DNA of 64,000 nt from Clostridium sp. GTDB lineage: Bacteria > Bacillota > Clostridia > Lachnospirales > Lachnospiraceae. Below are positions 4,985 through 52,261 of the stretch, in pieces. Within the stretch, counting starts at the first letter, position 1, and every line of letters begins with the position of its first letter. Position numbers and translations under genes: made by a program. The DNA lies in NCBI GenBank assembly GCA_023664385.1, contig JAMPFU010000003.1, positions 78,538 to 142,537 of the forward strand, given 5' to 3'. A model generated the notes under the pieces. It was given only the letters and a program-made list of their open reading frames with translations. It was not told the DNA's origin and did not search any database.

Positions 4985-7407
4985 TGACAAACGATATTTA
5001 CAATTCTGTTCGGCACGTAAATCTCCTTGACAATATTGCCTGTAAGTCTGTCGCCTAACGCCTCCTTCGCCTTTGCAATCACGGTGTCCTTGTCATCATT
5101 TACGGAAATGTTTACGGTAACTCTTGTCTTGCCGTTTATCTGAACAGCAATTTCCTTTTCCTCATCCTTCATTTCCGCCTCATCATAGGAAGGCCACTGA
5201 TTATGGAATACGGAGGTCGTCCCTCCAAGCATCTCCCAAAGCTCCTCACCTATGTGAGGTGCAAACGGAGCAATCAGAAGCACCATTGTCTTGAGCGTTT
5301 CCTTATCTACGCCCGTAGTCTTTGTAAGCTCCAAAAACTTGTTGTTATACTCCATAAAGCCTGATATAACGGTATTTAAGTTGAACTGCTCCAGTCTTTG
5401 TGTTATATCAAATACAAGCTTATTGCGAAGCTTCACAAGCTCCTTTGTCTCAGGTGCATCTTTTTCAAGATTTGAGGTAACCATTGCATAAAAACGGTTC
5501 AAAAATCTGTATATGCCCTCCATGCCGCTGTCATCCCATATGGAGTCAAGCTCAGGAGGTCCGATAAACAGCTCGTACATTCTTAACGTATCGCAGCCGT
5601 AATCTCTCACGATGTCATCAGGCGATACAATATTTCCAAGTGATTTGCTCATTTTTGTAGCGGCGCCGGTCTCTTTGTCCCTGCCGCATACCATGCCCTG
5701 ATTAAACAGTCTCTTAAACGGCTCCTCAAAATCCACAACTCCAATATCATAGAGAAATTTCGTGTAAAATCTTGAGTAGAGCAGGTGCAGAACCGCATGC
5801 TCCACGCCACCAATATACATATCTACAGGAAGATACTTGTCCGCCTTTTCACGGCTTACAAGCTCGTTTTTATTTTTGCTGTCGACATACCGCAGGAAGT
5901 ACCATGATGATCCTGCCCACTGCGGCATGGTATTTGTCTCTCTTTTCGCAGGCTTTCCACAGCATGGACATGTTGTGTTTACCCACTCCGTAATATCTGC
6001 AAGTGGCGACTCGCCTGTTCCTGTAGGCTGATAGCTTTCAACCTCAGGAAGAAGAAGCGGAAGCTGCTCCTCAGGAACGGGAACTGCCCCACAATCAGGA
6101 CAATGTACAATCGGTATCGGCTCGCCCCAATATCTCTGGCGTGAAAATACCCAATCACGAAGCTTGTAGTTTACAGTCTTTTTGCCGTAGCCCTTTTCCT
6201 CTATCATTGCAGGTGCTTCCTTTTTCAGCACAGCAGATTCCATGCCGTTCCAGTCCCCTGAATTAATCATGGTTCCTGCTGCCTCCGTATAAGCCTCCGT
6301 CATATTTTCTATTTCCTTGCCATCCTTGGCAATAACCTGAATAATTGGAAGATTAAATTTCTTTGCAAATTCAAAGTCCCTGTCATCATGTGCAGGCACA
6401 CACATGATTGCTCCCGTACCGTAATCGGCAAGTACATAATCGGAAAGCCATATCGGCGTTTTCTTTCCATTTAAAGGATTTATGGCATAGCTTCCCGTAA
6501 ATACGCCGGTTTTTTCCTTATCCTGCATACGGTCAACATTTGACTTCATGGAAGCCTCATAAATGTATTTGTCAACCGCCTCCTTCGTTTCAGGCGTGGC
6601 AAGGTCAGCCGCAAGCGCATGTTCAGGTGCAAGCACCATAAATGTAGCGCCGTAAAGGGTGTCAGGTCTTGTTGTGTATACGGTAATCGCCTCATCCCGT
6701 CCGTCAATCTTAAAATCAACCTCCGCTCCGTAAGACTTTCCAATCCACTCGCTCTGCATTTTCTTAACCTTTTCAGGCCAATCAAGGCCCTCAAGGTCAG
6801 TTAAAAGCCGCTCTGCATATGCTGTAATTTTAAGCATCCACTGACGAAGGTTCTTCTTAGTTACGTCAGCACCGCACCGCTCACATTTACCGTTTACAAC
6901 CTCCTCGTTGGCAAGTCCCGTCTTACAGGAAGGACACCAGTTAATCGGCATCTGCTTCTCGTATGCAAGCCCCTTCTTAAACATCTGCACAAATATCCAC
7001 TGCGTCCACTTGTAGTATTCAGGGTCAGTCGTATTAACCTCCATATCCCAATCGTATATGGCGGCAATCTGATTAATCTGTTTTTTTATGTTGGCTACAT
7101 TTTCTGCTGTTGAAATGCTTGGATGCACTCCGTTTTTTATAGCATAATTCTCAGCAGGAAGTCCAAAGGCATCCCAGCCCATAGGGTGTATCACATAATG
7201 TCCCTGCATCAGCTTGTATCTGCTCCAAACGTCAGATATAACGTAGCCTCTCCAATGTCCTACATGTAAGCCGTTTCCTGACGGATACGGGAACATATCA
7301 AGACAGTAATATTTCGGCTTTACCCCATCATTTACATTAATCGGATTTTCCTCCCAGTTCTTACGCCACTTTCCTTCAATCAGCTTATGATTATATCCAC
7401 TCGCCAT
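4981..7407 (-). CDS. leuS: Leucine-tRNA ligase
   Basis: 808 residues, normal for bacterial LeuRS. The HIGH motif is HVGH (residues 48-51, in [15 protein letters not shown]). A zinc ribbon (NWCPSCKTG...KCERCG, about 158-180) precedes the CP1 editing domain with [12 protein letters not shown] and the conserved [15 protein letters not shown]. The class I signature KMSKS appears as [10 protein letters not shown] about residue 570-585. A C-terminal anticodon-binding domain follows. It charges tRNA-Leu and edits Ile/Met mischarging in the cytosol. Unlike pheS and aspS it has no T-box in the 107 bp upstream, so regulation must differ. The ATG has GGAGGAATTAAAA upstream. Confidence 0.97.
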
Positions 7408-8605: not shown

Positions 8606-10108
8606 CTACTCCTCCTTTTTGTCACCGTTTTCGCCATGCTCCGTATCGTATGCATCGTCTGTTTCATGTACGTCATCCTCCGACTCATTTACAGTCTCGT
8701 ACACATCGTCCTCCGCCATATTTATCTCCTCAAGGGTATCCTTGTCCAAAGTCTCCTCGTCAGGAAATTCCTGTCTTTTTTTCACAAGCAGCTTTGCCTT
8801 AATGGTGGCAAAATAACCCTTTTTCCGTTTTTTCTTTTTCAGATGGTTCCTTCTTCCATAAAGCTTTGCCGCATATTTTGGTTCTCCCGTCTCCTCATCA
8901 AATCCGATAAGCCTGAAATAATCCTCAGTATCGGAGGACATATTTTTTGCACGAAGCCCGTCCCGAAGCTGTACTGCAAAGAACGCATAAATACATGCAA
9001 ATACGGGAACACCTAAAATCATGCCCGGCACACCAAACAAATCTCCTCCGACCAAGATTGCAACAAGCACCCAGATTCCCGATATACCTGTGGAATCCCC
9101 AAGAATAAGCGGTCCAAGTATGTTGCCGTCAAACTGCTGAAGAATGAGAATCCATACAATAAATATCACAAACATAATCGGGTCGTCCATAAGGGCAAGC
9201 AGCGCTCCCGGAACGGCACCGATAAAAGGTCCAAAGAACGGTATAATGTTTGTAACTCCAACAATAACGCTGATAAGCAATGCATATTCCATGTGCATCG
9301 TCTTCGTAAATACATAGCATATAATGCCGATGATAATGGAATCAAGTATTTTACCGTTTATAAAGCCGCCAAATACGGAATTGGCATAGGAAAGTCCGTC
9401 AAGTATTTTATTTCCATGCTTTTTGGAGAAAATACAGTAAATGATTTTCTTGCCCTGAGCAATCAGTACATCCTTGCTTGCAAGAAGATATACGGTTACA
9501 ATCAATCCGATAAAGAAATTCAGTACCGCCTTCACGCCTACCATCAAACCTGATGAAACCTGCACCATAATTGTATCGATATTCGGAATTACTTTCTCCT
9601 CAATGATTGTCATTACATTATTCTGCACATAGCTTATGACCTCCGACAGCTTTCCCTCAAGATATTCATTTTTTGCAAAGACCCGCTCAACCCACTCTTG
9701 CGCATTATTCAGATACCCTGTCATATTACGTGCAAGTGTTTCGACGCTGACTTTAATCTGTGGAATGACAAGCCATAAAAAGCCGGACAAAATGCCGATA
9801 AAAAATACAAGCGTCAGTATCAGTGCCGGCACCTTTGTCTTATGATACAGAACATTGTAGCTTTTCTTCTTCCAGATTTTTGTAAATAAAAAGGCAAGTC
9901 CACGCCTTATATATATCATAATCGGGTTAAGCATAAAGGCAATGATAAATCCTATAATAATAGGCGTCATTGCAGAAAAAATCTTGCCTATGGTTTCCGC
10001 TATTACCCGCCAGCCTTCAACCACATGTGCAAAAAGAATACAGATACATATAGATACCGTAAATACAACTCCTGCACGTATAATATTTTTATTCCATTTC
10101 TGTCCCAT
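8606..10108 (-). CDS. AI-2E family transporter (PerM/UPF0118)
   Basis: 500 residues. It has the family layout of about eight TM segments with a large loop after the third, including SAMTPIIIGFIIAFMLNPI near residue 45, and the conserved late region VTNIIPFFGPFIGAVPGALLAL. The end segment GDLFGVPGMILGVPVFACIYAFF is also typical. The C-terminal about 120 residues are a charged cytoplasmic tail: a KKKKRKK run, then a very acidic end rich in Asp/Glu (EDDVYETVNESEDDVHETDD). Members export small molecules or ions (AI-2 in TqsA, Na+/H+ in others); substrate cannot be told here. It is the first gene of the unit 8606-7701-7515. Confidence 0.9.
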   Translation of the reverse strand: MGQKWNKNIIRAGVVFTVSICICILFAHVVEGWRVIAETIGKIFSAMTPIIIGFIIAFMLNPIMIYIRRGLAFLFTKIWKKKSYNVLYHKTKVPALILTLVFFIGILSGFLWLVIPQIKVSVETLARNMTGYLNNAQEWVERVFAKNEYLEGKLSEVISYVQNNVMTIIEEKVIPNIDTIMVQVSSGLMVGVKAVLNFFIGLIVTVYLLASKDVLIAQGKKIIYCIFSKKHGNKILDGLSYANSVFGGFINGKILDSIIIGIICYVFTKTMHMEYALLISVIVGVTNIIPFFGPFIGAVPGALLALMDDPIMFVIFIVWILILQQFDGNILGPLILGDSTGISGIWVLVAILVGGDLFGVPGMILGVPVFACIYAFFAVQLRDGLRAKNMSSDTEDYFRLIGFDEETGEPKYAAKLYGRRNHLKKKKRKKGYFATIKAKLLVKKRQEFPDEETLDKDTLEEINMAEDDVYETVNESEDDVHETDDAYDTEHGENGDKKEE

Positions 10109-10218
10109 AAAGCATCTCCTAAATTTGTCTTATCACTACTTTTTCGATACCAACATTCGCTACAATTGATATACCTAAAAAATTATATCAGATTTTCCTT
10201 CCTATTTCTACCTATAAC

Positions 10219-10252
10219 TTAAAAAACCTGCATATTCTGTGCAGGTTTTTTA
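10219..10252 (-). terminator. Bidirectional intrinsic terminator after carD
   Basis: AAAAACCTGCA (10222-10232) and TGCAGGTTTTT (10240-10250) form an 11-bp stem with a 7-nt loop, flanked by A-run and T-run on the two sides. It lies ten bases after the carD stop and works in either direction. Confidence 0.88.
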
Positions 10253-10261
10253 GAAGCCTCT

Positions 10262-10762
10262 TTACTCCGATACGCTTTGTATAATTATGTTCCTGATTTC
10301 CTCCTTGTCACTTCCAGTTGCAAGCGCAAGCTCCGAATACAAATCCTCCTCAGCCATTTTCAAGTATCTTTCATCTGTTGCAGTTATTTTTTTGCCGTTT
10401 TCCTCACGCTCCCTTTTTCTTATAAGGAGCGTCTTTATAATCTGTATCCACTGTCTGCAATCTCCACTTTTCATGACACTCTTATAGCTGTCGTCACGCA
10501 TCCTTTCATTCGTGATACAAAGCGGTTCAATCGTTTTTGATTCGGCAATAATCTGTTTTGCCTCCTCGCAGCTGATTACCTTTCTGATCATAATCCTGTC
10601 ATTGTCTGCCGGGCAAAAAAGCCTACTGCCTCTTGCCTTTTCCGGAATTAATACATAGTATAATCTGTTCCCGTCTGCTCCCGAAATGTCAGGATGCGTA
10701 ATATCCGCCACCCTGCAAATTCCATTAATTCCGTAAACGATATAGTCTCCGATATCAAACAT
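10262..10762 (-). CDS. CarD family transcriptional regulator
   Basis: 166 residues from the chosen start. The N-terminal RID/Tudor-like domain (about 1-60) has the family opening MFDIGDYIVYGINGICRVADI and LYYVLIPEKARGSRLFCPADN. The C-terminal helical domain contains RQWIQIIKTLLIRKRER and AEEDLYSELALA, as in CdnL/CarD proteins, which bind RNA polymerase beta and promoter DNA. An earlier in-frame ATG at 10780 exists, but GGAGG five bases upstream of 10762 and the family N-terminus favour the later start. It is monocistronic between the terminator at 10219 and an inverted repeat at 10779-10807. Confidence 0.9.
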   Translation of the reverse strand: MFDIGDYIVYGINGICRVADITHPDISGADGNRLYYVLIPEKARGSRLFCPADNDRIMIRKVISCEEAKQIIAESKTIEPLCITNERMRDDSYKSVMKSGDCRQWIQIIKTLLIRKREREENGKKITATDERYLKMAEEDLYSELALATGSDKEEIRNIIIQSVSE

Positions 10763-10778
10763 TACATCCTCCATTTCC

Positions 10779-10807
10779 AAAACAATTTACCGTAGGTAAA
10801 CTGTTTT
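10779..10807. promoter_or_regulatory. Inverted repeat upstream of carD
   Basis: AAAACAATTTACC-GTA-GGTAAACTGTTTT, 13-bp arms with one mismatch. On the plus strand it is followed by more T. It sits directly before the carD ribosome-binding site, so it may be an operator, or an mRNA hairpin affecting carD translation. Confidence 0.55.
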
Positions 10808-11036
10808 TTTACTAACGAAAAAGCCGTTGCAACAAATATTTTAGCAAACTTAAAACTGAAAAGTAAATATTAAATTTGCCCCAAAAAAATTTTTGTCACT
10901 TTGCTCATTTTGACCCCTTGTTATTTTGTAATATTTTACAATGTGATAGTCCAATTATTCCCAACAAAAGGGGTACTTTAAACAAAACCTTTGAAGGATG
11001 ATTCCACTGTTTTTCTTGGTATCATGACAGAATGAC

Positions 11037-11118
11037 TGCACAAGGTGCATTTCAGGCGAAAATCCATGCCTACACGCTGGATTTCCCAACAATTTGCCCC
11101 ACAGGGATGTGGTTTTTT
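11037..11118 (+). ncRNA. Candidate small RNA end: hairpins plus intrinsic terminator
   Basis: Three short stems follow each other: TGCAC-aag-GTGCA (11037-11049), AAATCCA/TGGATTT (11060-11066 with 11078-11084), then CCACA-ggga-TGTGG with six T (11099-11118). The terminator faces the plus strand, but no plus-strand coding sequence precedes it. A weak promoter-like TTGACC with an AT-rich -10 lies near 10911-10940. This is the only content of the 390-base gap 10763-11152 besides the carD repeat. No RNA family is recognised. Confidence 0.4.
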
Positions 11119-11152
11119 CAATTTTATTTTCTGTCCCACCTGAAATTCCATT

Positions 11153-11539
11153 TTATTTCCTTTTTAAATGCAGCATTACGCTTCTTCTTGTTATAATTCC
11201 AATAAAAATATTTCTGTCATCTATAACCGAAAGAAAATTTCTGTCAATTATCTTGTCCATGATTTTATCCGTATCTGTACTGTTAAGCACAAAGTCATCT
11301 ACAGAAAGATGCACAATATCCCTGACAACCATGTTTTTCATCTCATCGCAGCCATGCTGTATGGCTACACGCAGGAAATCACCTTCACTTACAATGCCCT
11401 CCAGCCTTCCGACCTCATCCACAACAGGAACGGCAGTAAACCCACTGGCAAGCAGAAATTCAACTGCCCTATCCATTTTATCGTTTCCATTAAGATATGT
11501 AAGATCCTGTTTCGGAATAAGAATATTAAATATGTTCAT
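11153..11539 (-). CDS. Two-CBS-domain protein
   Basis: 128 residues forming one Bateman module. CBS1 covers roughly 1-58 (DKMDRAVEFLLASGFTAVPVVDEVGRLEGIVSEGDFLR) and CBS2 roughly 70-128 (VRDIVHLSVDDFVLNSTDTDKIMD...FLSVIDDRNIFIGIITRRSVM). Such stand-alone modules bind adenine nucleotides and often regulate partner enzymes. It lies 35 bp downstream of the DAHP synthase gene on the same strand and may be co-transcribed. The ATG has GGGGGT ten bases upstream. Partner and ligand are unknown. Confidence 0.9.
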   Translation of the reverse strand: MNIFNILIPKQDLTYLNGNDKMDRAVEFLLASGFTAVPVVDEVGRLEGIVSEGDFLRVAIQHGCDEMKNMVVRDIVHLSVDDFVLNSTDTDKIMDKIIDRNFLSVIDDRNIFIGIITRRSVMLHLKRK

Positions 11540-11574
11540 CTTATGTTACCCCCATTAATAACAGTTGTCGCAAG

Positions 11575-12603
11575 TTAAAGCTGCTCTGCCATAGAAAGAA
11601 GCAAAGCCTCCGATTTTTCCCAGCCAAGACATGGATCTGTAATTGATTTACCGTAACAGCCGCCTCCAATCGGCTGGTTGCCGTCCTCAATATAGCTTTC
11701 CACCATGACGCCCTTTACAAGCCTTCTCACGCTCTCAGAATGTCTCCTGCTGTGCAGTATTTCATTGACAATTCTTGGCTGCTCGTCCCATTTCTTGCCT
11801 GAATTATTATGGTTTGCGTCCACAATGCAGGCAGGATTTACAAGGTCAAATTTTGCATACATATCACTTAAAAGCTTTAAATCCTCATAGTGATAGTTTG
11901 CAAGGGAACGTCCGCTCTTACTGAGTGAACCTCTCAAAATACAATGTGCGAGAGGATTTCCGTCAGTCTTTGTCTCATAGCCCATAAATAAAAAGGTGTG
12001 CTTTGACTGTGCTGCCACACAGGAATTGAGCATGACATTGTAATCTCCGCTTGTAGGATTTTTCATTCCCACGGGAACGTCTATACCGCTTGCTGTCAGC
12101 CTGTGTGCCTGGTTTTCCACACTTCTTGCGCCGATTGCAACATAGGAAAGGACATCCTCAAGATAAGGCCAGTTATCCGTGTAAAGCATCTCATCTGCAG
12201 CCGTAAGCCCTGTCTCGTTGATTGCCTTTATGTGCATCTTTCTGATTGCCTTTACGCCCTCAATAAAATCCGGCTTATTTTCAGGATTTGGCTGATGCAG
12301 CATTCCCTTGTAGCCCGAGCCGTTTGTCCTAGGCTTATTTGTATAAATTCTAGGGATAATCATTATTTTATCCTTAACCTTTTCCTGCACCTTTGCAAGC
12401 CTTCCGAGGTAGTCCAAAACCGAATCCTCATAATCTGCCGAGCAGGGTCCTATGATAGCGATAAATTTATCTGATTCTCCCGTAAAAATTTTTTTAATTT
12501 CCTCATCTCTTGCAGCCTTTATATCTGCAAGTGATTGATCCATCGGGTGTGCCTGCCTGATTTCGTCAGGGGTAGGTACACTCTTTACCATGTGTAGTGC
12601 CAC
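11575..12603 (-). CDS. 3-deoxy-7-phosphoheptulonate synthase (class I DAHP synthase)
   Basis: 342 residues. It makes DAHP from phosphoenolpyruvate and erythrose 4-phosphate, the first step of the shikimate pathway. Family landmarks are IIGPCSADYEDS, the PRIYTNKPRTNGSGYKGMLHQP segment in two parts around residue 95-115, GARSVENQAHR, GMKNPTSGD and IVDANHNNSGK (metal and PEP ligands). It is of the AroF/AroG/AroH type, with only a short N-terminal extension of the kind that carries feedback control in E. coli. The longer frame starting at 12645 overlaps no better site; GTG at 12601-12603 has AAGGAGG seven bases upstream, so it is chosen. It follows yfbR by 28 bases. Confidence 0.95.
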   Translation of the reverse strand: MALHMVKSVPTPDEIRQAHPMDQSLADIKAARDEEIKKIFTGESDKFIAIIGPCSADYEDSVLDYLGRLAKVQEKVKDKIMIIPRIYTNKPRTNGSGYKGMLHQPNPENKPDFIEGVKAIRKMHIKAINETGLTAADEMLYTDNWPYLEDVLSYVAIGARSVENQAHRLTASGIDVPVGMKNPTSGDYNVMLNSCVAAQSKHTFLFMGYETKTDGNPLAHCILRGSLSKSGRSLANYHYEDLKLLSDMYAKFDLVNPACIVDANHNNSGKKWDEQPRIVNEILHSRRHSESVRRLVKGVMVESYIEDGNQPIGGGCYGKSITDPCLGWEKSEALLLSMAEQL

Positions 12604-46195: not shown

Positions 46196-47146
46196 TTATG
46201 TACATTCATTTAATATGGCATCCACGCAAGCTTTTACTTTACTATTTTGCTTTTGCCCATCACTCAGGGACAAATAAACGGTAATAGGGTCAACAAAGCC
46301 CGTTCCATTAAAATTGATACAATAGCCAAGCTCCTGAACAACGCAGCCTACTTCATCGTCATCTAATGCCTGTTCCCTCGTCTTAATCTGAAATCTCTGC
46401 AAATCCCGTTTCGTGACCGCATATGTAGGATAAACATTATCCTGCAACCCAAAATAATGACAAATTGCCGAACTGCCTGATTTTATATTTGCTGAAATAT
46501 CCTCGATAAACTCAAATGTCTTAATCACAGGATTTCTAAATAAGGGCTCCAACAAATTCCACAGTTCCTTCGGGGAAATGCCTATGGAAAGCAGCCTTGC
46601 CCTTCCAACATCCTTGATAACCGGAAGCTTTAAATACTGTATTTCATCAAAGCATTTACGCACTGCCATGGTTGTCACATTAAGCTTCTCTGCAATTTCT
46701 TGGGCAGACATGTCCTGCCACTTTTCATATAAAGCCAACAGCAGCAGTTTTTGCGTAAGAAATGCAATTCTTTCAACAGGCTTAATCGTTTTATCTGCTC
46801 TCGCATATACCAATATATCCAAAAAAGGAAGAAAAACCATTTTGTCCCAAATAATAAACGGAATCCCCTCCTCCACCATCTTATTCCTTATATAAATGCT
46901 TTGGTTTTTGAGATACAATGCGCACTCCATACCCGAAAGTTTCTTCATAAGCCTTTGGTGCTTTCTCATAAAGCTCAAAGAAAACCTCATTAACGGTTCG
47001 GCAACCAGCCACTCAAGACCATCCATTTTGATTATATAAAAATCGTAGGTATTTTCAAAGGTTCGTGACAATTCTATACAATCCAAATATACTGATACGC
47101 CTATGGGGCTTTTAAGAGTTTTTTCTAAATATTCCTGCATTTGCAT
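46196..47146 (-). CDS. Unknown protein with central winged-helix motif
   Basis: 316 residues. The first about 140 residues are not recognised. A helix-turn-helix lies near 145-195 (SAQEIAEKLNVTTMAVRKCFDEIQYLKLPVIKDVG and LLSIGISPKE), like MarR-type or AbiEi-like DNA-binding modules. The C-terminal part has ICHYFGLQDNVYPTYAVTKRDLQRFQ. It is divergent from the AAA_14 ATPase at 47337 with a promoter on each side. The first ten codons are duplicated with variation after the ATPase (48608-48640). It may regulate the ATPase locus, possibly through the inverted repeat 47237-47262. Function is inferred from motif and position only. Confidence 0.7.
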   Translation of the reverse strand: MQMQEYLEKTLKSPIGVSVYLDCIELSRTFENTYDFYIIKMDGLEWLVAEPLMRFSLSFMRKHQRLMKKLSGMECALYLKNQSIYIRNKMVEEGIPFIIWDKMVFLPFLDILVYARADKTIKPVERIAFLTQKLLLLALYEKWQDMSAQEIAEKLNVTTMAVRKCFDEIQYLKLPVIKDVGRARLLSIGISPKELWNLLEPLFRNPVIKTFEFIEDISANIKSGSSAICHYFGLQDNVYPTYAVTKRDLQRFQIKTREQALDDDEVGCVVQELGYCINFNGTGFVDPITVYLSLSDGQKQNSKVKACVDAILNECT

Positions 47147-47228
47147 TTTAGTATTTCCTTGTGTTGTTTTTATATGTGCTTATGGTGGGTATTATAAATT
47201 AAAATATGGGTTGGTGCAAGGATATATT
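47119..47228 (-). repeat. Direct duplication, left copy
   Basis: 110 bp covering the first codons of the winged-helix gene, its ribosome-binding site and its promoter. It closely matches 48619-48722 over its whole length apart from a 6-bp insertion and scattered single changes. The two copies are direct repeats flanking the ATPase gene. Confidence 0.85.
47191..47219 (-). promoter_or_regulatory. Promoter of the winged-helix gene
   Basis: Minus-strand TTGCAC (47214-47219), 17-nt spacer, TATAAT (47191-47196). A matching promoter with TTGCTC is present in the right repeat copy (near 48683-48711), reading into the 3' end of the ATPase gene in antisense. Confidence 0.8.
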
Positions 47229-47336: not shown

Positions 47337-48611
47337 ATGACATATATAAAAAGAGCTGCCGAGGATACGATTGCACGGATTTCCAAAATGTTTCCCGTGC
47401 TTTTGGTAACAGGTCCGAGGCAGGTAGGAAAAACAACCTTGCTGCAAAAACTGGCAGAGGAACAAAAGGAACTTGGCGTAAACCGTAAATACGTAACCCT
47501 AGATGATCCCGACGTGCGATACCTTGCAAAGCATGACCCGGCGTTATTTATGCAAAGATATGAGCCACCGGTACTGATTGATGAGATTCAATATGCAACA
47601 GAGCTCCTTCCGTACATCAAAATGAGCGTTGACCGTTCAAAACGAAAGGGTGATTTTTGGATTACGGGCTCACAAGCTTTTAGACTTATGGAGAATGTCA
47701 GTGAAAGTCTTGCGGGACGTGTCGGCATTATAAATCTGTTAGGACTTTCCGATGCAGAGATTTATAAAAACCCAAGTCAACCATTTTGTGCAGATGCTAA
47801 ACAGCTAATGAAGCGCATATCAACTATAAAACCAAGGGGACTGAATGAAATTTACAGGAGAATTTTCAAGGGCTCCATGCCAGAGCTTTATGCAGATAAA
47901 AATGTGGATTGGGAAACCTATTACCGTTCCTATGTAGATACCTATTTGCAACGGGATATTCGTGATTTGACACAAGTCGCTGATGAAATGCAGTTTTACA
48001 ATTTTATGACGATTGTTGCAGCCCACACCTCCAAACCAGTTGTTTATGAAGAATTGGCAAGCGCAGCGGGTATCTCAGCTCCAACTGCTAAAAAGTGGCT
48101 GTCTGTTTTGGTATCCTCCCACATCATTGCACTGATACAGCCATATCATAATAATGCACTGAAACGTGTTGTAAAAATGCCGTTTCTTCACTTTTTGGAC
48201 ACCGGACTTGCGGCATATCTTTTGAAATGGGGCAATTCTGAAGCACTCGAAAAAGGGGCAATGTCAGGGGCTTTTTTTGAAAGCTATGTATTTTCGGAAA
48301 TCTATAAAAGTTATCTCAATGCGGGAAAGGAGCCTCCGATTTTTTATTACAGGGACAAGGATAAGAAGGAAATCGACCTGCTGATTTATCAAAATGGAAC
48401 CCTGTTCCCGATAGAAATTAAAAAGTCCGCCTCCCCCGGTAAGGCAGCAATCAAGAATTTCCGTGTTTTAGAGCCTGTGACCCGATCTGATACCTTCAAC
48501 GATTTGGAAAGCTTAAAGATTGAAATCGGAACAGGCAGTGTTATTTGTATGTCAAACAACTTACTTCCGATTGACGAAAAGAATTGGTACGTGCCTGCTT
48601 GGTTGATTTAA
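47337..48611 (+). CDS. AAA_14 ATPase with DUF4143 domain
   Basis: 424 residues. AAA_14 domain first: PVLLVTGPRQVGKTTLLQKLAEE (Walker A), KYVTLDDPDVRYLAKHDP, PPVLIDEIQYATELLPYIK (Walker B) and FWITGSQAFRLMENVSESLAGRV (sensor). The DUF4143 half (about 190-400) carries YVDTYLQRDIRDLTQV, a winged-helix-like segment (AAGISAPTAKKWLSVL), and the nuclease-like FYRDKDKKEIDLLIYQNG...PIEIKKS pattern. The family is common in accessory regions and its role is unknown. GGAG lies nine bases before the ATG. A 110-bp duplication flanks it. It ends at 48611, overlapping a remnant of the winged-helix gene. Confidence 0.93.
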   Translation: MTYIKRAAEDTIARISKMFPVLLVTGPRQVGKTTLLQKLAEEQKELGVNRKYVTLDDPDVRYLAKHDPALFMQRYEPPVLIDEIQYATELLPYIKMSVDRSKRKGDFWITGSQAFRLMENVSESLAGRVGIINLLGLSDAEIYKNPSQPFCADAKQLMKRISTIKPRGLNEIYRRIFKGSMPELYADKNVDWETYYRSYVDTYLQRDIRDLTQVADEMQFYNFMTIVAAHTSKPVVYEELASAAGISAPTAKKWLSVLVSSHIIALIQPYHNNALKRVVKMPFLHFLDTGLAAYLLKWGNSEALEKGAMSGAFFESYVFSEIYKSYLNAGKEPPIFYYRDKDKKEIDLLIYQNGTLFPIEIKKSASPGKAAIKNFRVLEPVTRSDTFNDLESLKIEIGTGSVICMSNNLLPIDEKNWYVPAWLI

Positions 48612-48640
48612 GGAGAACATTTTTCTAAATATTTTTGCAT
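48608..48640 (-). pseudogene. Remnant of a second winged-helix gene start
   Basis: ATG at 48640 gives MQKYLEKCSP and stop, compared with MQMQEYLEKTLKSP at the start of the gene at 47146. It carries the same ribosome-binding site and promoter (right repeat copy 48619-48722). It is clearly a truncated copy whose break lies at the ATPase stop codon. Confidence 0.75.
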
Positions 48641-48722
48641 TTTAGTATTTCCATGTGTTGTTTTTATGTGTGTTTACGGTGGATATTATAAATTAAAATA
48701 TGGGTTGGAGCAAGGAGATATT
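48619..48722 (-). repeat. Direct duplication, right copy
   Basis: 104 bp matching 47119-47228. See left copy. Together they suggest that the ATPase gene was inserted or exchanged between duplicated ends. Confidence 0.85.
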
Positions 48723-48791: not shown

Positions 48792-49307
48792 TTACACAGT
48801 AATTAAATTTAATTTCCGTAATTCATCAAACGTATTTTCAATCGTTGCTTCATCAAATTTTGTTCCCTTTATCTCTTTAAATTTATTTATAATTTTTTCC
48901 TTACTGATAGGAGCATAAACAAGATTATTAGCAACATAATCCATAGTAGCAAGCGCCTCTAATTCCCTAGGACTTCTATGTGCAAACTGCTCTATTACCT
49001 GTATAGCACATTTTTCATCATCGTCTGACAAGCTATTATGAGTTATTTGGGCATTCCCTTTACTTATTACATGCGTTTTTCCACTATCATCAATTTTTAT
49101 TACATTTTCACTTTCAAGATAATACATAATATTGTCTAATTTTTCACTGTACGGTCCATAATAATGTATACCATACCGAAGATTAAGCGCTATGCCTTCC
49201 CTCTCAAAAAAGTAAAATAACTTTTGAGCAGCTTTTTTCCCAAGCTCAGCACCATCAAATTTTTCGCAAATCAATTCAAAAAGATACGCATGGTTTTCAT
49301 ATTTCAT
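48792..49307 (-). CDS. YwgA-like protein
   Basis: 171 residues, cytoplasmic. GKKAAQKLFYFFEREG, then RYGIHYYGPYSEKLDNIMYYLESENVI, resembles Bacillus YwgA and, more loosely, the SocA/Panacea antitoxin fold, with a winged-helix C-terminal half (ISKEKIINKFKEIKGTKFDEATIENTFDELRKL). In Bacillus ywgA neighbours ywfO, an HD hydrolase, and the same pairing is seen here: its ATG overlaps the HD gene stop by four bases. GGAGGACG precedes the start. It probably forms a functional pair with the HD protein; the activity is not known. Confidence 0.75.
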   Translation of the reverse strand: MKYENHAYLFELICEKFDGAELGKKAAQKLFYFFEREGIALNLRYGIHYYGPYSEKLDNIMYYLESENVIKIDDSGKTHVISKGNAQITHNSLSDDDEKCAIQVIEQFAHRSPRELEALATMDYVANNLVYAPISKEKIINKFKEIKGTKFDEATIENTFDELRKLNLITV

Positions 49308-50593
49308 AATTCGTCCTCCATAATACTATTATTAACGTCTTTCATGTATTCAAACGCTTTTTCTGCAACATCGGGAGCACAGTATATTCTCATTATATCA
49401 ATTTTTTCTGACAAAGCATTAATAATTTCCGACTCCTCAGAAATCGTTGTTACCCTGTCAGTTTTTTCATCATAAATTATTATAGCCTTTTCGTCAGAAA
49501 ACTCAACCCTTTTAGGAATTTTATGCGGCATTTTACCTGCCGATTTATCCACAATCAAATTTTCTTTCCCTACTTTTTCTGATAATTCAGAATAATTCCT
49601 CTGAAATTCTCTCTTATCAGCTTCAACCGGATGTGTTTTCGTATAGCAGACCCGCGGGTATACAATTCGGAATATAATATTTCTACACGCCTCATCTTGA
49701 GCATTTTCCTTTAAAGCCTGTATCACCCTACAGTCATCCCACTCCAAATACTCCGCTGTATTTACCGGATATATCCCATCAGGTAAAACAGACTTTAAAG
49801 CTCTTACAAGCATAATGTCAAAATATCTTCGGGTTCTATGGAAATATACCTGTATAAACATAAAGTATCTCGCTAAAACAAATTCCTCAAACGCCTGAAC
49901 ACCTCCATGTTGAATTGCAAGTCGAGGGCAGTCATCCATAAAGTGAATTGTAAATGAGGAAATTAAACGTTCAATATCATATACACCATATTTTACCCCA
50001 CAATAATATGAATCACGCAGCAAATAATCCATCTTATCACAATCTAATTCGCTATCCATAAAACTTTTCAAAAACATAAATTCAGAATTTGGTCCCGCAT
50101 CTCTTCCCCTATAAATATCACATAACAATTTGGGCGTTATATTATATTCCTCACCATACTTGTTTACAAATTCATTACCTATTTCATGTATAATGTCTGC
50201 AATTTCTGTTTCATTTATAATCTTAACAGTATAGTCCTCATGTTCCAGCACATCAGAAAAAAGTTTTTCAGATGCATGGGAAAATGGTGCATGACCTATA
50301 TCATGTACAAGTGCTATCAGCCTTAGCAATTGCTCATACCATGCACGCTTAGGTTCAGGAAATTTATCCTCAAAGCCTTGTATGGCAGAACTAAATGCTC
50401 TAGTTACAAGGTGCATAACTCCTAACGAGTGTTCAAAACGTGTATGTTCCGCACCAGGGAAAACATAATAAGTCATAGCAAGCTGCTTTATATATCTAAG
50501 TCTTTGAAATGGTTTGGAATTGATAATTTTCAGTTCACCACCTCTCACTTCAATAAAGCCATGAATCGGATCTCGAAATTTGTCATTTTTCAA
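49304..50593 (-). CDS. YwfO-like HD-domain hydrolase (SAMHD1/dGTPase family)
   Basis: 429 residues. FRDPIHGFIEVRGGE at the start and the HD metal site GAEHTRFEHSLGVMH, LVHDIGHAPFSHASE (HD pair) and SELDCDKMDYLLRDSYYCGVKYG are as in the SAMHD1-like dNTP triphosphohydrolases and B. subtilis YwfO. Substrates are likely dNTPs or related nucleotides. It starts with TTG, which has AAAGGAGG seven bases upstream; no better ATG exists. It sits second in a unit: two-TM protein (60-bp gap before), HD, YwgA-like. Confidence 0.88.
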   Translation of the reverse strand: MKNDKFRDPIHGFIEVRGGELKIINSKPFQRLRYIKQLAMTYYVFPGAEHTRFEHSLGVMHLVTRAFSSAIQGFEDKFPEPKRAWYEQLLRLIALVHDIGHAPFSHASEKLFSDVLEHEDYTVKIINETEIADIIHEIGNEFVNKYGEEYNITPKLLCDIYRGRDAGPNSEFMFLKSFMDSELDCDKMDYLLRDSYYCGVKYGVYDIERLISSFTIHFMDDCPRLAIQHGGVQAFEEFVLARYFMFIQVYFHRTRRYFDIMLVRALKSVLPDGIYPVNTAEYLEWDDCRVIQALKENAQDEACRNIIFRIVYPRVCYTKTHPVEADKREFQRNYSELSEKVGKENLIVDKSAGKMPHKIPKRVEFSDEKAIIIYDEKTDRVTTISEESEIINALSEKIDIMRIYCAPDVAEKAFEYMKDVNNSIMEDEL

Positions 50594-50653
50594 CTTACCG
50601 CCTCCTTTGCATACAGAACATTTGTTCTATTATAATTGTTTTTAGATATAATG

Positions 50654-52261
50654 TCAATAGGTATGCCAATTTCCCATAATCCCATTATATCGCAGACGAA
50701 GCTCATTAGCATAATCATCCTTCATATCAATAATGTCCAAATAGGAAATCAGCTTCTCAATTTCTGCAATATAGTATTCCAAAGGTTTTGTGAATTTTTG
50801 TTTTGCCGAATCGTTACCAGCCTTCAATAAAAATATAACGTATGTATAAGAAAGCCCCAGCAGGGAAATTCGCAATGTATAATGTGGATTATGATTTACT
50901 CCCGAGCGGGCAATCATTACATAATCATGCAACATATTTACTATAGTATTATTATCTTTTTCTTTTATACTGGAAAGCATTTTCTCCAATTCAGCCCCAT
51001 ATTCAGAATGTCCTTCCGCATTCTTACCACATAAAACTGAAGCACGTTTTTCTTTTGTATAATTTAAACATTCACCATCCATCTCGGAAAATTCTTTTCT
51101 AAAATATTTTTCGTAATAAGACAGTATCGTATGATATATTTTTTCTTTTCTTATATCCATTATAGTACCGTCATTGTGCATTTTTATAAATGCCCGCTTA
51201 TAGTTATCCATAATTTTATTTTTGTTTTCGAATGTTTGATCGAATGTTTGATCGAATGTTTGATCAAATATTTTATCCAGCCCTTCATATGCACATCCAA
51301 GATTTCTAAAATATACCTCTCGTTCATATGGAGTATTTTCACTCCATTTAGCAGCACATCCACAAAAATAAACTGCCTTATTTGCATAATCCTTCTTGTT
51401 TTTTATTGTTTTAAATGCAGCATCCTTACCACATACATTTATAATTCTGCTATAAGAATCACCAACGGCTCCTGCCAAATAACATGCCATTTCAACACTA
51501 TCTCCATTATAATCCGGAGGATTATCACGTTTATCCTCATCATATTCCAATGGTATATCTATTTGTTTTGCAAAATTGGTACATATATTGATAGCACTCA
51601 TAAAGCATTCGTAAACATCCTTAATTTTTTCTTCATTATATCCTTTATAATACTTAAATTCAGCAATTCTATAATCTAAATACTGCTTCACTAATTTCTC
51701 CGGCTGTTTACTTGATGCATACTCCTCTATTTTTTTCAAACCAACATTTGCTTTTGCTATTAATAATTCATGTTGATTACTTCCTGATGTATACAAGGAA
51801 TAAATTTCAACAAAAACATGCTCAATTTCCATAAGCGACAAGACATCATCATTTTGGTTTTGCGGCTTATTAAAATATTCTATAAATTTTTCATAAAAAT
51901 ACATTGAGATGGCATCCTTTGAAGTTTTCAATAATTCCTGTAAAAAGAGCATATTATAGTTATTAAAACTCACTTCAACAGATTTTTTTATACGTTCAGA
52001 ATCCGATTTCAATTCTTCTAATTCTCTTCTATTTATAGAATTAGCAATGTTCAAGCCTGTCCACACTGTTATCGCAGCACCAATAATTGCAATTCCTGTT
52101 GCCAGCAATGATGCCTCTGAATATGCAGCAGCAACTCCCTTATCAAGTTTCATAAATGCAATAAATATAGTAATAGGGCATGCAAGGATAAGAAGCATAA
52201 TACTGATAATAATACTTATTTTAGCAATTTCAGCAAACTTGCTTTTACTAGATTGGTTCAT
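50654..52261 (-). CDS. Unknown membrane protein: two TM helices and long helical domain
   Basis: 535 residues. TM1 about 13-33 and TM2 about 45-68 (SLLATGIAIIGAAITVWTGL) are followed by a coiled coil (NRRELEELKSDSERIKKSV) and a long all-helical cytoplasmic region. That region has Tyr/Asn/Lys-rich helix pairs that look TPR- or HEPN-like without clear motifs, and many Cys/Tyr residues. Three in-frame copies of the unit FDQT (51230-51265) lie near residue 335. The gene is strongly AT-rich. First gene of a likely operon with the HD and YwgA-like genes. No known family is recognised. Confidence 0.85.
   Translation of the reverse strand: MNQSSKSKFAEIAKISIIISIMLLILACPITIFIAFMKLDKGVAAAYSEASLLATGIAIIGAAITVWTGLNIANSINRRELEELKSDSERIKKSVEVSFNNYNMLFLQELLKTSKDAISMYFYEKFIEYFNKPQNQNDDVLSLMEIEHVFVEIYSLYTSGSNQHELLIAKANVGLKKIEEYASSKQPEKLVKQYLDYRIAEFKYYKGYNEEKIKDVYECFMSAINICTNFAKQIDIPLEYDEDKRDNPPDYNGDSVEMACYLAGAVGDSYSRIINVCGKDAAFKTIKNKKDYANKAVYFCGCAAKWSENTPYEREVYFRNLGCAYEGLDKIFDQTFDQTFDQTFENKNKIMDNYKRAFIKMHNDGTIMDIRKEKIYHTILSYYEKYFRKEFSEMDGECLNYTKEKRASVLCGKNAEGHSEYGAELEKMLSSIKEKDNNTIVNMLHDYVMIARSGVNHNPHYTLRISLLGLSYTYVIFLLKAGNDSAKQKFTKPLEYYIAEIEKLISYLDIIDMKDDYANELRLRYNGIMGNWHTY
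51230..51265 (-). repeat. Three tandem 12-bp units inside the two-TM gene
   Basis: GAATGTTTGATC three times in a row (51230, 51242, 51254), encoding (F)DQT repeats without changing the frame. Unit number could vary between strains by slippage. Confidence 0.9.

Follow-up and report, generated by a model that had tools for sequence, protein, structure and literature searches.

The window analysed here is a 64,000-nt stretch of the genome of a gut bacterium, Clostridium sp. (GCA_023664385.1, contig JAMPFU010000003.1, positions 78,538-142,537, forward strand). It encodes an HD-domain hydrolase and, joined to it by an ATGA overlap, a 171-aa YwgA-like protein. A first-pass annotation of this DNA had grouped the two genes with an upstream gene for a protein with two transmembrane segments (the two-TM protein). 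The three minus-strand open reading frames (ORFs) and the ATGA overlap are present as annotated, but the unit that travels is the HD-YwgA pair, not the trio. The pair is mobile; HD genes of its clade jump between families and often decay. We propose, tentatively and at somewhat less than even confidence, that it is a horizontally mobile, SOS-controlled two-gene module composed of a deoxynucleoside triphosphate (dNTP) hydrolase and a DarG-like or Panacea-like restraining partner.

The HD hydrolase and YwgA-like protein recur as a pair

Pairing was surveyed in 348 genomes of the phylum, with broken HD genes counted as present. The YwgA search returned 41 places in 37 genomes, and an HD gene lay directly upstream at 37 of these (the window and 36 of the 40 places fetched). 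The other places comprised a DarG, a second copy at L098 and, at L111 and L112, fragments. The HD search (E ≤ 1e-30) returned 77 places in 70 genomes, 54 of them with a YwgA gene directly behind. At two more places (L167 and L172) a YwgA-like gene stood on the upstream side, and one solo HD gene (L146) was near a contig end. The order was HD-YwgA, and the genes mostly overlapped or were less than 50 nt apart. Distance matrices of the two proteins were correlated over 45 pairs (r = 0.88), and 2000 permutations reached at most 0.17. One stretch, L087, held two HD-YwgA pairs (5000-6935 and 10248-12258), in both of which the HD gene was broken and the YwgA ORF was full-length.

The HD protein matched the Pfam families HD and HD_assoc_2 and, in the PDB, 2hek (E 5e-55) and EF1143 (2o6i, E 7e-40); EF1143 structure 4lrl and SAMHD1 were also among its best solved relatives. 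The metal ligands of EF1143 are H66, H110, D111 and D183, according to a passage of PMC8177086. These align with H55, H97, D98 and D186 of the window protein, all four ligands thus being intact in an alignment read by eye under the assumption that chain numbering is 24 higher. H97, D98 and D186 were present in 71/71 aligned HD proteins, and H55 in 69/71. From its family and intact ligands, the HD protein is predicted to be a dNTP triphosphohydrolase of the SAMHD1/EF1143 type, in agreement with the identity first assigned to it. Its score for the anti-phage dGTPase model NF041026 (NCBIfam) was 26.5 bits against a cut-off of 400. HD relatives were found in 51 plasmid-collection records, all less than 60% identical, and a YwgA gene followed the HD gene in one (Priestia) of the six records in which neighbours were read.

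The 171-aa protein exceeded the Pfam gathering cut-off for PF13274 (SocA/Panacea; 27.8 vs 25.7 bits) and matched the PADLOC DarG model at 1.2e-17 across positions 164-327 of 329. An alignment was made of 34 members, hand-picked from the 67 ORFs found with a YwgA profile. As a profile against the PDB it matched the solved DarG domain 7yk3_B (E 1.8e-10), with all other matches at 0.005 or weaker; PADLOC DarG was matched by 34/34 members and PF13274, at E ≤ 0.01, by 10/34. A second YwgA profile matched the gene directly behind HD in a ywfO-like operon of Priestia (E 7e-29), a position that we take to be that of ywgA in Bacillus. As a control, the same profile found the macro-domain DarG behind the DarT gene in L104 (E 1e-19). 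The profile shared with the Priestia gene supports the YwgA-like identity given in the first-pass annotation. As a whole protein the 171-aa product differed from DarG, in that it lacked a macro domain, scored 51.7 bits against the NCBIfam DarG cut-off of 250, and had HD, not DarT, as its neighbor. Because of the profile matches to the DarG domain and PF13274, the YwgA family is best described, on present predictions, as a standalone form of the DarG C-terminal/Panacea-like domain. The PADLOC candidate-defence model PDC-M19A was matched by 26/34 aligned members (best E 7e-11). No YwgA relatives were found in the phage collection, and the plasmid search with YwgA returned only four DarG-like macro-domain proteins. 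Nothing on YwgA function was found in the open-licence literature searched, as far as the listed matches show.

The pair belongs to a scattered and frequently decaying HD clade

A tree was generated from 71 HD proteins no shorter than 380 aa, with EF1143 itself left out. The window HD fell in a clade of 31 rows (support 96/90), all 31 of which were paired with YwgA. The remaining 40 rows consisted of 26 solo and 14 paired genes; six of these rows were plasmid-collection records, and the YwfO-type genes of Priestia, Listeria and S. aureus also fell here. Within the window clade, families f22, f36, f90, f96 and f123 were scattered and f1 and f70 were grouped. Outside it, f31, f72, f87 and f91 cohered, and the rows of f22 and f57 were split, being different HD subfamilies. 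The first-pass annotation had likened the pair to a housekeeping lineage of Bacillus, a parallel that the tree contradicts by placing the window HD outside the YwfO lineage; its view that the genes have an accessory placement was borne out. A housekeeping YwfO-YwgA identity for the window pair was rejected, as its HD belongs to the separate 31-row paired clade.

HD genes of the window clade were often disrupted. Fifteen were broken by stops, frameshifts or deletions and 30 were intact, compared to two short genes (L167 and L169) and 40 intact ones elsewhere (Fisher P = 9e-4). L167 is an uncertain case whose best match lies narrowly inside the window clade, and L157, a composite of unrelated hits, was left out of the count. 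Omission of L082 and L179, which are near contig ends, gave P = 0.003. YwgA was intact at 13 of the 15 loci with a broken HD gene. Three broken HD genes (L075, L085 and L170) sit in contigs as long as 2.5-3.3 Mb, where an assembly gap is a less likely cause. Frequent HD decay is what a costly accessory gene would show.

A perfect promoter and a LexA-type box precede the pair

A promoter of the form TTGACA-17-TATAAT (12/12 positions) was identified upstream of the HD gene, and the stop codon that ends the two-TM gene lies in its -35 box. The promoter also matched at 12/12 positions in the related loci L004 and L233 and at 10/12 in L033, and 0/5000 shuffles of the 130 nt reached 12. A box, AGAACAAATGTTCT, abuts the -10 element and is kept in L004 and L233. 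The first-pass annotation had not reported the perfect promoter and the LexA-type box that lie between the two-TM gene and HD. Part of PMC4234289 gives the LexA consensus of B. subtilis as GAACN4GTTC and the recA operator of C. difficile as GAGAACAAATGTTTGT; the operator is nearly the same as the box found before clade HD genes.

The box recurred upstream of other HD genes of the clade. With thresholds chosen after the box in the window had been seen, gene starts taken as the longest ORF, and L004 and L233 excluded, GAACATATGTTC with at most two mismatches was present within 120 nt upstream of 13/42 window-clade HD genes. The comparison groups gave 3/40 other HD genes and 3/389 background genes, the latter taken from 40 regions chosen at random in a part of the same genome set (Fisher P against background of 5e-12 for the window clade and 0.012 for other HD genes). 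GAACN4GTTC with at most one mismatch was found at 11/42, 6/40 and 10/389 genes, respectively. When one locus per genus was used, the box was present in 7/32 (P = 8e-7). Five scrambled palindromes were each found before 0 or 1 of the 42 clade HD genes, and in a letter-shuffle test 16/45 upstream regions had a box with at most one mismatch, whereas 60 shuffles averaged 3.9 and never exceeded 9. The window contains one GAACNNNNGTTC site, with 0.58 expected by chance, and the weight of the case comes from position, conservation and recurrence, not from the rarity of a single site. The pair thus looks, from its upstream sequence, to be under LexA control and wired to the DNA-damage response. A second AGAACATATGTTCT box in the genome (L241 1502-1513; G000 C35:18309-18322) precedes an uncharacterised 238-aa ORF.

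A box before the HD gene would also be expected if the pair were an SOS-induced regulator or sanitiser of the host nucleotide pool, in which HD trims (damaged) dNTPs during repair, YwgA serves as a required subunit or adaptor, and there is no role in conflict. Passages of two papers fit such a function, one describing depletion of dNTP pools by EF1143 (PMC8177086) and the other proposing that YwfO hydrolyses modified triphosphates (PMC4993169). The patchy, family-scattered distribution and the frequent decay of HD are unlike a housekeeping repair enzyme, and we consider this explanation unlikely, at about one chance in four.

Proposed function of the HD-YwgA module

The preferred reading, a dNTP hydrolase held in check by YwgA and released by DNA damage, would operate as follows. 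In an undamaged cell LexA, bound at the box behind the -10 element, would hold expression of the pair low, as the box itself suggests. DNA damage, prophage induction or phage attack would lead to cleavage of LexA and allow the strong promoter to fire. Hydrolysis of dNTPs by HD would then lower the dNTP pool, so that phage would be starved or replication stalled. The translationally coupled YwgA would bind and restrain HD, as the DarG C-terminal domain and Panacea do their toxins; this role is suggested by the homology to DarG and Panacea and by the obligate pairing. The two-TM protein upstream would be a lineage-specific helper or passenger. The pairing, the clade with its scatter and decay, the promoter and the box enrichment are direct observations; we infer LexA binding, enzyme activity, inhibition and biological role from sequence. 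Phage defence by the pair is possible. A more specific form of the proposal, in which the pair is a mobile, LexA-controlled toxin-antitoxin system that empties the dNTP pool upon damage or prophage induction and denies replication to phage, with HD as the toxin and YwgA as an antitoxin of the DarG C-terminal domain/Panacea type, appears to us doubtful, with a little under one chance in three.

Several points weigh against the module as proposed. Both the pairing and the matching distances are also compatible with common descent, which by itself could give the r of 0.88, or with a stable enzyme that has a scaffold. Assembly errors may account for some of the broken HD genes. Broken YwgA genes are under-counted, because YwgA was the route to most loci. 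With regard to LexA control, 29/42 clade HD genes lack a box at the threshold used, and in L033, the nearest relative outside the genus, the box is degenerate. One GAACN4GTTC site per 64 kb is in itself unremarkable, at least one being present in 48/100 shuffles, and AGAACN4GTTCT occurs at three places in the whole genome, rarer than the reversed control (seven). The box in front of the genome's lexA gene, GAACATTCGTTT, carries one mismatch and lies 109 nt ahead of the start of the longest ORF.

If the toxin-antitoxin form of the proposal is correct, the pair would represent a new kind of toxin-antitoxin or defence module joining SAMHD1, DarTG and the SOS response, and would provide a function for the YwgA family. 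Depletion of dNTPs is an antiviral strategy in animals and bacteria, which raises the question of how cells restrain such enzymes. A clade whose HD proteins in the tree are all paired to a protein resembling the DarG C-terminal domain and Panacea, many with an SOS-type box, makes YwgA as the brake and DNA damage as the trigger testable.

The two-TM protein is conserved only within the genus

Hydrophobic segments span residues 17-35 and 52-70 of the two-TM protein, consistent with the two membrane helices first assigned to it. The protein matched no Pfam, NCBIfam or PADLOC model, and the best match in a PDB search was at E 0.13. A helical-repeat domain is plausible, because a distant relative in G056 has sub-threshold tetratricopeptide repeat (TPR) matches (best E 4e-4). 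Within the gene, an in-frame 12-bp tandem repeat, TCGAATGTTTGA, at 51228-51275 encodes FDQT repeats, and the array is shorter in L004.

Orthologues of the trio were found at the same site in 3/37 genomes of the genus, all three closely related, namely the window, G645 and G662, the last apparently being the same record as L004, and in each the two-TM gene lay upstream of HD. In one further genome, G677, the two-TM protein was matched weakly (E 1.4e-4) over 66 residues. In G646 the flanking genes were present, with a hexapeptide-transferase gene in place of the trio. Between the window and G645, identity was 92% for HD, 86% for YwgA and 58% for the two-TM protein, and dN/dS was 0.06, 0.16 and 0.33, respectively. 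The two-TM gene is therefore kept yet fast-evolving within the genus, as its orthologues share a site and are the most divergent of the trio.

Outside the genus the pair occurred alone. The G096 pair (L033), 70% (HD) and 57% (YwgA) identical to that of the window, had no two-TM gene, and no two-TM match at E ≤ 0.01 was found in 115 loci of other genera and families (L039-L112 and L142-L182), many of which extend just a few kb to either side of the pair. In G056 and G212, the two-TM protein has distant relatives (23-26% identical, same family) that adjoin other genes, and neither genome gave a match to HD or YwgA. No two-TM relative was found in the plasmid and phage collections, and four pattern scans of viral contigs found no relative.

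The first-pass annotation had viewed the trio as a three-gene anti-phage system, with the membrane protein as its defining new partner and as trigger or effector. The trio does form a block within the genus, the two-TM gene lying directly upstream at all three orthologous loci, and the rapid divergence of this protein is what a sensor might show. The pair without a two-TM gene elsewhere, the two-TM relatives that live apart from the pair and the pair's own promoter argue against a defining partner, and a three-gene system now seems improbable. As a widespread system the trio was rejected, the two-TM match being missing from L033 and from the 115 loci fetched outside the genus. The best reading of the two-TM protein is a fast-evolving, lineage-specific local passenger or helper.

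Gene neighborhood of the pair

The features of the locus are listed in Table 1. The flanking polysaccharide genes and the neighboring AAA_14/DUF4143 gene were found where the first-pass annotation had placed them.

Table 1 Features of the HD-YwgA locus in the window.
Feature	Position	Strand	Remarks
Two-TM helical protein	50654..52261	-	535 aa; neighbor conserved only within genus; possible member of unit
HD hydrolase (predicted SAMHD1/EF1143 type)	49304..50593	-	429 aa; TTG start behind AGGAGG; ligands H55, H97, D98, D186
YwgA-like protein	48792..49307	-	171 aa; predicted standalone DarG-C-terminal-domain/Panacea-like partner
Promoter TTGACA-17-TATAAT of HD-YwgA pair	50629..50657	-	12/12 match
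LexA-type SOS box AGAACAAATGTTCT	50615..50628	-	abuts -10; conserved in L004, L233
AAA_14/DUF4143 ATPase	47337..48611	+	separate neighboring insertion, outside unit

Polysaccharide genes were present within four genes of the pair at 8/39 phylum loci, compared to 1/40 random regions drawn from a subset of the same genomes, when the sugar genes of the window were used as probes (P = 0.014). A biased test, with probes taken mostly from the loci themselves, gave 12/39 vs 1/40. Pieces of galE/capD flanked the pair in several loci, including L085, L096, L101, L107 and L142. When neighbors within four genes were clustered in search of a conserved third gene, just one group recurred widely, a sugar-nucleotide epimerase/CapD-like group present at 12 loci (L004 included). 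These associations favor the idea that the pair travels as cargo and acts in surface polysaccharide, recurring inside exopolysaccharide operons. Nevertheless, 31/39 loci show no such genes with the window probes, and three of the clearest cases (L085, L096 and L142) come from one genus. Polysaccharide operons are also known hot spots of gene exchange, and we regard a polysaccharide role as very improbable. In L096 a full galE stands on one side of the HD-YwgA pair and a partial second copy on the other (6945-7304 and 9239-10228; 83-89% identical blocks), which suggests that this pair arrived by recombination at galE.

Defence genes within two genes of the pair were assessed with PADLOC, excluding proteins of less than 100 aa and loci L004, L033 and L034. 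The pair loci gave 154 families from 117 proteins, and among the matches listed (the best 25 families, here and for the control) ZorD/SNF2-type helicase models led with two proteins, accompanied by one match each to type I methyltransferase, BrxHI and SngC. The control gave 44 families from 132 proteins, and the matches listed were led by mad3 (4), followed by Csm3 (2) and single GajB and Cmr models. Dropped from this census were 2/119 case proteins (L086:2-3958, which runs off its locus, and the DarT of L104) and 7/139 control proteins, mostly long or open-ended. Two loci, L078 (9235-10114) and L100 (4464-5322), have next to HD-YwgA what appear by eye to be nucleotidyltransferase/HEPN-type pairs, which BLAST groups as related.

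The AAA_14/DUF4143 gene was missing from the corresponding site in G645. In the window it is bracketed by direct repeats at 47120-47228 and 48620-48722 (89 nt core, 92% identical), of which two copies were found in the genome, and a similar repeat in G646 (L234) flanks the hexapeptide-transferase gene. The site looks like a repeat-bounded cargo slot. Beside it, a 316-aa helix-turn-helix protein (46196-47146) occurs in 4/37 genus genomes (E ≤ 1e-20) and diverges faster than the surrounding sugar genes.

Comparison with known systems

The pair shares both families and their order with YwfO-YwgA of Bacillus, and the Priestia gene behind HD matches the YwgA profile. The two differ in that the group containing the YwfO-type genes of Priestia, Listeria and S. 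aureus has many solo genes, whereas the window clade is entirely paired and scattered among families, and SOS boxes are rarer outside the window clade (3/40 other HD genes). The sequence and four metal ligands of the window HD, whose activity is predicted from sequence, are common to the dNTP triphosphohydrolases EF1143 and SAMHD1, from which the clade differs by its constant YwgA pairing and LexA-type box.

Similarity to DarTG is confined to the DarG C-terminal domain, matched by every aligned YwgA member, and a passage of PMC11481870 describes this domain as occluding the DarT active site by mimicry of single-stranded DNA. The window locus has neither a macro domain nor DarT, and the partner is instead an HD hydrolase. 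With the Panacea (PanAT, DUF4065) pairs the window locus shares a protein above the PF13274 cut-off and a two-gene organization, though the YwgA family matches PF13274 more weakly than classical Panacea does. Panacea antitoxins act by binding their toxins, according to a passage of PMC8832971. A term search of the main texts of two Panacea papers found no SAMHD1, dGTPase or YwgA partner; their data sets lay outside this search, and a listing there is possible. In the matched part of the 2023 Panacea paper, dNTP stands in a passage on GajA. The open-licence literature gave no match for DarG with YwgA or for DUF4065 with an HD domain, and none combining three of the terms LexA box, SOS regulon, dNTPase and HD domain.

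The closest mechanism is that of Clover, in which, as described in part of PMC12265719, the toxic dNTPase CloA is restrained by the adjacent CloB. No CloB-type nucleotidyltransferase was found next to the window HD, the neighbors being the two-TM, YwgA, AAA_14 and sugar genes. CloB is a nucleotidyltransferase that makes p3diT, so the brake in Clover is a nucleotide, whereas the partner in the window is a DarG/Panacea-like protein encoded behind a LexA-type box.

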